DNA of 64,000 nucleotides, from assembly GCA_026004195.1 (NCBI GenBank), contig BPIQ01000001.1, positions 1,175,622 through 1,239,621 on the forward strand, in the 5' to 3' direction. The translations under genes and the position numbers were made by a program. Positions within the stretch are counted from its first letter, which is position 1; every line of letters starts with the position of its first letter. Shown piece after piece: positions 20,028 to 23,759 of the stretch. Under the pieces are notes generated by a model. The model made no database searches, was not told the DNA's origin, and was given only the letters and a program-made list of their open reading frames with translations. This DNA comes from Candidatus Binatia bacterium. Its GTDB lineage: Bacteria > Desulfobacterota > Binatia > HRBIN30 > BPIQ01.

Positions 20028-21212
20028 ATGGAGTTCCCGATCCGGAGACGAAAGACACGGGCCGTGCAGGCCGGCGACCTCACGATCGGCGGCGGGGCGC
20101 CGGTGAGCGTACAGAGCATGTGCGCGACGCGGACCCGCGACGTCGACGCTACCGTCGAGCAGATCGAGCGCCTGCGGGCGGCCGGCGCGGCTTTGGTTCG
20201 CGTCGCCGTCGACAACGAGAAGGACGTGGAAGCACTCGCCGAGATCCGGCGGCAAACCTCGGCCAACCTCGTGGTCGACCTCCAGGAAAACTACCGCCTC
20301 GCTCGCAAAGTCGCCCCTCTCGTGCAGAAGATCCGGTACAACCCCGGCCATCTGCACCACGTCGAGAAAGAGAAACCCGTACGGGAGAAGGTCGAATGGC
20401 TCGCCTCGGTGGCCGCCGACCACGGGTGCGCACTTCGCATCGGTGTCAACTGCGGCTCCGTCGCGCCCGAATACCTCGAACGCTTCCCGGACGACCCGCT
20501 CGAAGCCCTCGTTCGGTCGGCGGTCGAGCACGCGGAAATGCTCGACCGCGTCGGATTCGAGCGGTACGTCGTTTCGCTCAAGGACTCGGATCCGGCCAAG
20601 GTCGTACGAGCCAACCGGCGCTTCGCGGAGCTTCGCCCCGACGTGCCCCTCCACCTCGGGGTGACCGAGGCAGGATTGCCCCCGGAAGGGGTCCTGAAGT
20701 CGAGACTAGCCCTCGAAAAACTCCTCGCCGAGGGGATCGGGGAAACCATCCGGGTCTCGCTGACCCTCCCGAACGACCGCAAGGAGGAGGAAGTGCGGGT
20801 GGGCTTCGCGATCCTCGAAGACGTCCGACGCGGCAGGTTCCTCAACGTCCCCGACGTCCGATCCGGACTGAACATCGTCGCGTGCCCGAGCTGTTCGCGG
20901 GTCGAAAACGAACGTTTCGTGGAGCTCGCCGAAGAGGTGAGACGGTTGACGGAATACGCCAGGGATCACGACCTGACGATCGCCGTCATGGGCTGTCGGG
21001 TCAACGGCCCCGGGGAAACGGACGATGCGGACCTCGGCCTCTGGTGCGGGCCCACCACCGTTCATCTGAAGAGAAAGGCCGAGAAGATCGGGACCTTCTC
21101 TTACGACGCCATTCTCGGAAAGCTCCGCGAGGAACTCGACCGGCTCGTCGAGTCGAGAAAGGCCCGCGGTCACACGGCCGAGCGGCCGACCTCGAGCGGC
21201 AACTCTTCCTGA
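20028..21212 (+). CDS. ispG: 4-hydroxy-3-methylbut-2-enyl diphosphate synthase (flavodoxin/ferredoxin)
   Basis: IspG/GcpE, the 4Fe-4S enzyme that reductively opens MEcPP to HMBPP in the MEP isoprenoid pathway; 394 residues. The N-terminal TIM-barrel part begins [16 protein letters not shown] and includes [14 protein letters not shown] and RIGVNCGSV. The C-terminal cluster domain has CPSCSR and [10 protein letters not shown], giving the three Cys and one Glu ligands. The last 43 bases overlap the 3' end of thiI on the other strand. The C-terminal 25 residues after the conserved domain look like a tail created by this overlap. Confidence 0.95.
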
Positions 21213-22375
21213 TCGGGAGGAAAGCGGAACGACACCGGTTCGGTGCGTTCGACGGTCCGCTCCACCCAGCCCGGCACGTCGAGCGCGGCCTCCAGAGCCC
21301 GCGCCTGTTCGGGGCTCACCCGCGTCGAGGGGTGGCGGGGAACGAAAAGCTGGCAGCAATCCTGGTCCGGGCGGACCGAAATTTCGAAGGTGCCCAGGCG
21401 CTTCGCCTGGTCGGTGATTTCCTGCTTGTCCATGCCGATCAGGGGGCGCAAAACGGGTAGCGTGGCCACTTCGTCGATGGTCACGAGATTCGCAAGCGTC
21501 TGCGAGGCCACCTGTCCCAGGCTCTCGCCCGTGACGAGTGCCTCGAGTCCGTGGCGCCGCGCGAGCGCCTCCGCGATCCGGAGCATCATGCGGCGGTAGA
21601 GCACGACGCGGGCGGGGCGCGGGGTTCGGCAGACGATCTCCCGTTGCAGCGCAGCCAGGGGGACGAGAAAAAGCCGGCACTCGTACTCGGAGCGGACCAG
21701 GAGTTCCACGATCTCCCTCGTCTTTTCGATGGCGCGCCGGTCCTGCAGCGGCACGGCGTGGAAGTGAACGAAGTCCACCCGGCAGCCCCTCTGCATCATC
21801 CGGGCCGCGGCTACCGGGGAGTCGATCCCGCCCGAAAGAAGAGCGAGGACCTTGCCCCCGGTCCCCACCGGCAAACCTCCCGGCCCGGGACTTTTCGGGC
21901 CGAGAACGAACGCTCCCTTCGACGTGACCTCCACCTGGAATACCCGCTCGGGGCTCCCGAGACTGACCCTCGCGCCGGTACGTTCCCGGATGGCGGCCCC
22001 GACGATCCGGCAGATTTCCGGGGACGGCACGGGGAACCGCTTGTCGGAGCGTTTGGCCCTCACGGCGAACGATTCGAAGGAACCTTCTACGGCCAGTTTC
22101 CGTGCCGCGGAGACGATGGACTCGAGGTCGGGGGGAACACGCAACCCCCGGGCCGAATGGACCACCCCGTAGGTCCGACCGATCCGCTCGGAAATTTCCC
22201 GTTCGTCCGCCCCCGGAGGCAGGGGAACGACGATGCGGCCGTCCACGTGAGCCACCGGTCCCGCCCCGGTTCCCCGCAGCGCCCTTCGGAGGTTCCCGAC
22301 GAGCTGCTCCACGAAGCGAAACCGGTTTCCCTTCTTGAGCGCCACCTCGTGGTAGTGAACGACGAAGCACTCCAT
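21170..22375 (-). CDS. thiI: tRNA 4-thiouridine synthase ThiI
   Basis: Sulfurtransferase-activating enzyme for s4U8 in tRNA and, in some bacteria, thiazole synthesis; 401 residues. The N-terminal ferredoxin-like and THUMP parts (about 1-165) are followed by a PP-loop ATPase with [12 protein letters not shown] (about 179-190). The form lacks the C-terminal rhodanese domain of E. coli ThiI, like the Bacillus short form, and ends shortly after [13 protein letters not shown]. Sulfur would then come directly from a cysteine desulfurase such as the SufS at the right edge. The ATG at 22375 fits the family start. It is convergent with ispG (43-base overlap) and divergent from the TrpC-like gene. Confidence 0.93.
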
Positions 22376-22463: not shown

Positions 22464-23219
22464 ATGCTGGACTGGGAAGCTCTTCGTGAGGCCAAGCGAC
22501 TCGCCGCGCGAAGCCGAGAAGTTCCGTCGAGCGAAATCGTCCCGAGCCGCCGCGATTTCACCGCATTTCTCGGGACGGGCGACCGAAAATGCGCACCGAT
22601 TCCTCTGTTCCGTCGCCGCGACCCGTACACCGGTGCGTGCTGGGAGTGGGACGCGCAGGCCCTTCTCCCGCTCTTCGACGAAGAAGACGTCCCGGCGCTC
22701 GCCGTCACCACGGAGTCGGTTTTCCACGGAGGCCGGGCGGCGGACCTCCGAGCCGTCGCGCCCCGAGCCCTGGCCCCGGTCCTGCAGGACGATCTCGTGA
22801 TCGACCCCGGGGGTGTCCTCGAAAGCCGGCTTCTCGGCGCGGACGCCACGATCGTGCCTGTCGCCTGGCTCGACGACGCCGAACTCGACGCGATCGTGGG
22901 CACGGCGCGCAGCGTGCACATGGCCGTGGTGTTGGCCGTGGAGAGCGAAGCCGACCTCCACCGTGCGCTCGAGATGGCGAACATGCCCCTCGGTCTCTGG
23001 CTCCGAGACCCCGACGGTCGACCGCGACCGGAACGGATCGAGCGGCTTTCTGCCCGGGCTCCCCGCTCCCGAGCCCTGCTGGCTCTCGGAGACGTGCCGG
23101 ACCTCGACACCTGGCACCGACTCGAGGGGCTCGTCGATGCGGCGCTCGTCGCGGGCTTCCTCTTCGGTAGCCCGGACCCGGTCGCCGCACTCGGGGCGCT
23201 CTGCGGCAAGGGGGCCTGA
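22464..23219 (+). CDS. Degenerate indole-3-glycerol-phosphate synthase-like (TrpC-fold) protein
   Basis: A 251-residue protein whose outline follows TrpC: LDWEALREAKRLAARSREV, then an ALAVTTESVFHGG strand-loop, VLQDDLVIDPGGVLESRLLGADA, and an AALVAGFLFGSPDP end. The catalytic residues are gone. AEIKRASPSKG is replaced by PIPLFRRRDPYTG, the Lys of LRKDF is Asp, the Glu of VEVH is Ala, the NN of GINNRDL is WL, and the Glu of SESGI is lost. It is therefore predicted not to make indole-glycerol phosphate. An upstream ATG at 22389 is possible. It is coupled to the NUDIX gene three bases downstream. No other trp genes are near. Confidence 0.7.
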   Translation: MLDWEALREAKRLAARSREVPSSEIVPSRRDFTAFLGTGDRKCAPIPLFRRRDPYTGACWEWDAQALLPLFDEEDVPALAVTTESVFHGGRAADLRAVAPRALAPVLQDDLVIDPGGVLESRLLGADATIVPVAWLDDAELDAIVGTARSVHMAVVLAVESEADLHRALEMANMPLGLWLRDPDGRPRPERIERLSARAPRSRALLALGDVPDLDTWHRLEGLVDAALVAGFLFGSPDPVAALGALCGKGA

Positions 23220-23222
23220 GCC

Positions 23223-23759
23223 GTGGACGCCTCCCGCGACGGCCTGCTCCGGGCTGCCGTCCTCGTTCCTCTCTTCCGAAAAGACGGGAAGCCCTGGGTC
23301 CTTCTCACCCGACGGAGCCAGAACCTTCCGAACCACGCCGGGCAGGTGGCTTTCCCCGGAGGGCGGTTCGACCCGAACCTGGACTCGAGCCTCCTGGAGA
23401 CGGCTTTACGGGAAGCCCGCGAAGAGATCGCCCTCCCCGCTTCCCGGGTAGCGGTGATGGGAGCTCTGCCGGACGTCGAAACGTTGAGCTCCCGCTTCGT
23501 GATCACCCCGTTCGTCGCTCGCGTTCCCGAGGACCACCCCTACCGCCCTTGCGACCGCGAGGTGGCCGAGATCTTTTCCATGCCGCTCTCGCTCTACTGG
23601 GATCCCGCACACCGGGACGAGCTCGAGTGGCACCACGAAGGGCAAAAGGTCCGCACACCGGCCCTCCGGTACGGCCACCGACTCATCTGGGGGGCGACGC
23701 TACGCGTGCTCGATCTCCTGGTTCGTTCTCCCCTTCTCGACCGAGCCCTTCGCCCGTGA
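23223..23759 (+). CDS. NUDIX hydrolase, CoA pyrophosphatase-like (NudL)
   Basis: A 178-residue NUDIX protein of the CoA diphosphatase subgroup. It shows LLTRRSQNLPNHAGQVAFPGG followed by the NUDIX helix TALREAREEIAL, the pattern of the UPF0035/NudL family. These cleave CoA or acyl-CoA to 4'-phosphopantetheine and 3',5'-ADP. It starts with GTG three bases after the TrpC-like gene, so the two are probably co-translated. The last 77 bases overlap the end of the convergent NDH-2 gene. NUDIX substrates are hard to fix from sequence. Confidence 0.87.
   Translation: MDASRDGLLRAAVLVPLFRKDGKPWVLLTRRSQNLPNHAGQVAFPGGRFDPNLDSSLLETALREAREEIALPASRVAVMGALPDVETLSSRFVITPFVARVPEDHPYRPCDREVAEIFSMPLSLYWDPAHRDELEWHHEGQKVRTPALRYGHRLIWGATLRVLDLLVRSPLLDRALRP

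Follow-up and report, generated by a model that had tools for sequence, protein, structure and literature searches.

A duplicate of TrpC that lost its catalytic residues and is probably kept as a non-enzymatic TIM barrel

A protein with the fold of indole-glycerol-phosphate synthase (IGPS, TrpC) and without its catalytic residues is encoded on the forward strand at 22464..23219 of the window, the 64,000-nucleotide stretch of Candidatus Binatia DNA analyzed here. It belongs to a subfamily, termed TrpCL in this report, which is probably an old trpC duplicate turned into a non-enzymatic TIM barrel (a pseudoenzyme) that binds or stabilizes protein. The catalytic residues are lost or variable across all 19 complete members, which a branch with support 100/100 sets apart as one clade when they are placed in a tree together with TrpC, and purifying selection is evident in one genus, g19. 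The fold is retained, and the six catalytic residues and most of those at the phosphate site have disappeared without a common replacement; in the proposed history, the duplicate would have given up catalysis.

The gene encodes 251 amino acids and ends with a stop codon at 23217-23219, and its start at 22464 is backed by the aligned N-termini of its relatives (M-D-W-x-x-L). The single Pfam match is PF00218 (IGPS; E 6.2e-17, residues 24-239), and its 62.1 bits exceed the gathering score of 27, which places the protein in the IGPS/TrpC family. Every NCBIfam match is to a TrpC model and falls far under cut-off (best 66.9 bits vs 260), so the protein is not assigned as a TrpC equivalog. The AlphaFold2 model, made from an alignment of 19 sequences, has a mean pLDDT of 93.2 and forms an eight-stranded barrel with an N-terminal helical extension. 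Its first VIA-align match is E. coli TrpC (1jcm; Z 31.6, rmsd 2.3 over 248 residues, 22% identity), and the best 50 matches from both Foldseek and VIA-align are exclusively IGPS or proteins engineered from IGPS. This sole Pfam match, together with structural lists filled by IGPS, rules out a generic TIM-barrel likeness, and the TrpC outline recognized in the first-pass annotation thus represents true homology. No match was found with PADLOC, which covers defence systems.

TrpCL shares with IGPS/TrpC (1jcm, 1pii, 3t44, 1i4n) the full-length fold, the N-terminal helical extension, the eight strands, the overall length, a GAD hairpin clamp and an Asp at the end of β3. The two differ in that the window protein is only ~27% identical to IGPS/TrpC and lacks the six catalytic residues, while TrpCL in general lies outside the trp operon, coexists with normal TrpC and is mostly devoid of the phosphate-site glycines. 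This has a consequence for annotation, as TrpCL clears the Pfam IGPS cut-off yet should not be named TrpC.

For IGPS, Lys53, Lys110, Glu159 and Asn180 (S. solfataricus numbering) have been reported to be essential, with Glu51 and Glu210 as additional conserved residues of the active site (PMC7681013, PMC10591298). The window protein has L48 in place of E51, R50 for K53, D109 for K110, A158 for E159, W179 for N180 and L208 for E210. It has been proposed from the window sequence that each catalytic position differs, and this is borne out for all six. The protein therefore lacks the residues that mark IGPS as an enzyme (EC 4.1.1.48), while every one of the 33 TrpC proteins from the same class has all six. 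Among the 19 complete TrpCL, E51 is replaced by Ala (9), Arg (7) or Leu (3); K110 by Leu (9), Asp (7), Tyr (2) or Glu (1); N180 by Ala in 12 and by various residues in the rest; and E210 by Leu (16), Gln (2) or Val (1). At E159, Glu is found in 7, Met in 7, Ala in 4 and Asp in 1. The replacement of Lys53 holds for the window protein, with its Arg, but does not extend to the whole subfamily, since 12 of the 19 keep Lys (otherwise Ala 3, Gln 2, Arg 1, Glu 1). The glycine of the ESG motif is absent in every member (Glu 12, Pro 4, Asp 3) and that of FLxGE in 13 of 19. Overall, the charged fraction at the catalytic positions is 0.36 in TrpCL compared to 0.83 in TrpC.

Two of these positions change together. 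Residues L48-F49-R50 (22605..22613, forward strand) at the end of β1 align with IGPS Glu51 and Lys53, and D109-D110 (22788..22793, forward strand) at the end of β3 align with Lys110-Asp111. Positions 48 and 109 hold Glu-Lys in every TrpC, while in TrpCL they hold Ala-Leu (9), Arg-Asp or Arg-Glu (7), Leu-Tyr (2) or, in the window alone, Leu-Asp. Such joint change would be the behavior expected of packing partners. The residue pairs track phylogeny, so they reflect few independent events.

The gene is nevertheless constrained. Across seven TrpCL of genus g19, the median dN/dS is 0.25 (0.16-0.37) with no stops, whereas in the same genomes TrpC gives 0.12 and the adjacent short-chain dehydrogenase-type (SDR) gene 0.07; the luciferase-like (LLM) gene was excluded from this comparison (one frame off). 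The rate of TrpCL is thus about double that of TrpC, yet it remains under purifying selection, and the gene is not decaying. These values show constraint on the protein and not the nature of that constraint. Frames are intact in all 19 complete members, and the intact relatives together with dN/dS rule out a pseudogene or a wrong start.

A profile built from the first 13 members finds TrpCL in 20 of the 148 genomes of the class, a group of uncultured bacteria, at 231-352 bits compared to 105-152 bits for ordinary TrpC. These genomes belong to the window's own family, f2 (two genera), f3 (genus g3), f4 (one genus), f8 (four genera) and f10 (one). The members have diverged to ~35% identity with their invariant residues retained. 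Approximately 285 sampled genomes of the same phylum outside the class gave no TrpCL match at E<=1e-48. Contig matches in Microtetraspora and Dactylosporangium are not TrpC-like, one (L033) lying inside another protein's gene and the other (L034) being an unalignable stretch. TrpCL is probably an ancient duplicate of TrpC, which may have originated within the class or outside it; the profile comparisons cover the subfamily's own phylum. The open-access literature, to which the search was confined, yielded no account of a non-catalytic paralogue of TrpC.

Normal TrpC is also present in 19 of the 20 TrpCL genomes, the exception being an 88% complete genome (G065). In the window's genome it is encoded on another contig, in a trp operon that also includes trpE, trpD and a trpB-like gene, which answers the check proposed in the first-pass annotation and rules out TrpCL as the genome's only TrpC. 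The window neighbors scanned within ~6 kb of TrpCL are not trp genes, in agreement with the same annotation. In two genomes of genus g3 (G009:C146 and G005:C30), unlike the window's genome, TrpCL and normal trpC lie only ~23 kb apart on one contig.

The active site of a TIM barrel lies at the C-terminal ends of its strands. Mean pairwise identity at the strand ends of the model was compared between 13 TrpCL and 13 TrpC from nearly the same genomes. At the C-terminal ends (the catalytic face) it is 0.35 in TrpCL and 0.79 in TrpC, while at the N-terminal ends (the opposite face) it is 0.50 in both. The loss of conservation is confined to the catalytic face (permutation p ~5e-5, with the same outcome under three other definitions of the strand ends), so that the region where conservation peaks in TrpC is where it is lowest in TrpCL. 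Within subgroups, the lower conservation of the catalytic face holds for g3 and f2, while inside f8 and f10 its conservation slightly exceeds that of the opposite one, and a group-specific ligand site is therefore possible there. Low conservation across subgroups is compatible with either no site or a different site in each subgroup. The only acid/base-capable residue conserved clade-wide on the catalytic face is D110, which is also present in TrpC; D53 is found in 16 of 19 members.

Residues invariant in all 19 complete TrpCL are P27, S28, R30, F32, P54, D72, A78, P105, R122, the GADA motif at 125-128, A148, H152, L220, V224 and D225. The succession of helices and strands places H152, D225, D72 and G222 on the far side of the barrel from the former active site, where the invariant residues may be purely structural. 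Conservation has shifted away from the catalytic face, toward the opposite one and the N-terminal PSxRDF segment. Through this segment and the strand-N-terminal face, TrpCL may bind another protein or stabilize a complex, and the former active site would have become ordinary core packing. The scaffold would then be retained for folding and for putative contacts on that far side. What counts against such a binder is that the genomic partners of TrpCL change between groups.

These partners are of two kinds. In the window, TrpCL is followed after 3 bases by a NUDIX hydrolase gene (23223..23759, forward strand), which scores 146.2 bits against the CoA-pyrophosphatase equivalog NF007980 (cut-off 134); both the spacing and the CoA type agree with the first reading of this DNA. 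The divergent neighbor is thiI (21170..22372, reverse strand), kept beside TrpCL-NUDIX in 8 genomes. Nine genomes have TrpCL and NUDIX next to each other (G000, G001, G002, G004, G005, G009, G011, G026, G046). In f8, nine TrpCL genes instead lie downstream of an SDR gene, most of them at a distance of 15-30 bp (~160 bp in G065), an LLM gene then follows where the contig reaches far enough, and NUDIX is unlinked or not found. One further TrpCL, in G013, has neither context. Moreover, the neighbor pairs persist without TrpCL: in G040 and G033, thiI and NUDIX are separated by 139 and 133 bp, respectively, that contain no trace of TrpCL, and SDR and LLM are ~40-115 bp apart in G051, G067 and G068. 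In addition, TrpCL is missing from 56 of the 71 genomes that carry this NUDIX. The pairing with NUDIX is therefore not obligate, and the coupling proposed earlier stands as adjacency in nine genomes but not as a general property of the subfamily. The NUDIX protein would be a candidate partner only where the two genes adjoin.

Three minor observations concern these neighbors. Matches to thiI with one in-frame TGA each occur in one genus (G003:C20:106215-107375, G006:C1:17679-18830, G010:C2:212149-213306). LLM genes are found near TrpCL in both contexts (window:27212-28153, forward; L036:5982-7058 and L043:10731-11657, reverse), ~4 kb downstream in the window, ~2.5 kb in G001 and close behind TrpCL in f8; this proximity may be unrelated, as the LLM family is common. 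In G013, TrpCL is followed by an opposite-strand gene for an MbnB/TglH/ChrH-type RiPP modification enzyme (L048:5723-6616, reverse).

The main rival to a non-enzymatic barrel, although itself rather unlikely, is a new enzyme with a different active site, whose substrates would differ by subgroup and belong to the same family as those of the neighboring NUDIX or SDR. Retained purifying selection and the tight gene order with enzymes (NUDIX in nine genomes, SDR in nine) speak for it, as do the prevalence of D53, some charged residues at 48, 109 and 158 in the thiI-linked members, and the slightly better conservation of the catalytic face inside f8 and f10. Against it stand the want of any clade-wide acid/base residue on that face other than D110, shared with TrpC, and the persistence elsewhere of the thiI/NUDIX and SDR/LLM pairs without TrpCL. 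The first-pass annotation had suggested a repurposed TrpC barrel of new function. Derivation from TrpC and repurposing are supported by selection, the separate clade and the normal TrpC elsewhere, whereas new catalysis at the old active-site face is not, because no replacement acid/base residue is fixed across the subfamily.

The remaining explanations are less likely still. It is doubtful that TrpCL is a specific accessory subunit that binds and regulates the CoA-type NUDIX hydrolase: the genes share a strand and a 3-base gap in the window, and 8 more genomes of the class, in two distant lineages, also have the genes closely spaced, but most genomes with this NUDIX do without TrpCL, f8 carries NUDIX unlinked or not at all, and G033 and G040 keep thiI and NUDIX side by side without it. 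Least probable is a relic, in which a weakly constrained copy of trpC would drift, serve no important function and be lost repeatedly. A dN/dS twice that of TrpC, the patchy spread over 20 of 148 genomes and the sites without TrpCL in two contexts would fit such drift, but dN/dS is far below 1, every complete member is intact, and residues remain invariant at ~35% identity.

A pseudoenzyme of this kind is relevant to protein folding, as IGPS serves as one of the main models both for how TIM barrels fold and for enzyme design. A GAD hairpin clamp before β4 is conserved in IGPS of all superkingdoms, with three orthologues studied (PMC8092565), and in a canonical clamp an Asp sits one position ahead of an even-numbered strand (PMC5343507). 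Clamps have been described as stabilizing IGPS, and breaking them can raise enzyme fitness (PMC8092565, PMC5343507). In TrpCL, the GAD clamp, G125-A126-D127-A128 (22836..22847, forward strand; clamp per PMC8092565), is invariant; the Asp before β4 is found in 19 of 19 TrpCL compared to 22 of 33 TrpC. Furthermore, D225 (23136..23138, forward strand) lies one residue before β8 in 19 of 19 TrpCL and in only 3 of 33 TrpC. A clade without the catalytic residues that keeps the GAD clamp and has fixed a second clamp-type Asp could help to tell residues conserved for folding from those conserved for catalysis, and may show which parts of the TrpC barrel are kept for folding alone. It is possible, though tentative, that TrpCL is a natural IGPS barrel minus catalysis, with a further clamp Asp fixed and a new protein-binding role for the strand-N-terminal face.

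Two kinds of barrel invite comparison. PDX1.2, the non-catalytic PDX1 paralogue of eudicots, is a TIM-barrel pseudoenzyme (PMC6829848). Like TrpCL, it is a barrel duplicate without active-site residues that is found in one clade beside catalytic copies; it belongs to a different barrel family and forms complexes with its catalytic paralogue, whereas the partner of TrpCL is putative. Engineered IGPS barrels, such as Kemp eliminases and retro-aldolases (9hvh, 4a29, 3nyz), share with TrpCL an IGPS scaffold from which the native catalytic residues have been removed. They are laboratory-made and contain a built-in new active site, while TrpCL is natural and has no conserved replacement site. The designed Kemp eliminases 9hvh and 9hvb (PDB) score above every natural IGPS with the TrpCL profile, presumably since both they and TrpCL lack the native catalytic residues.
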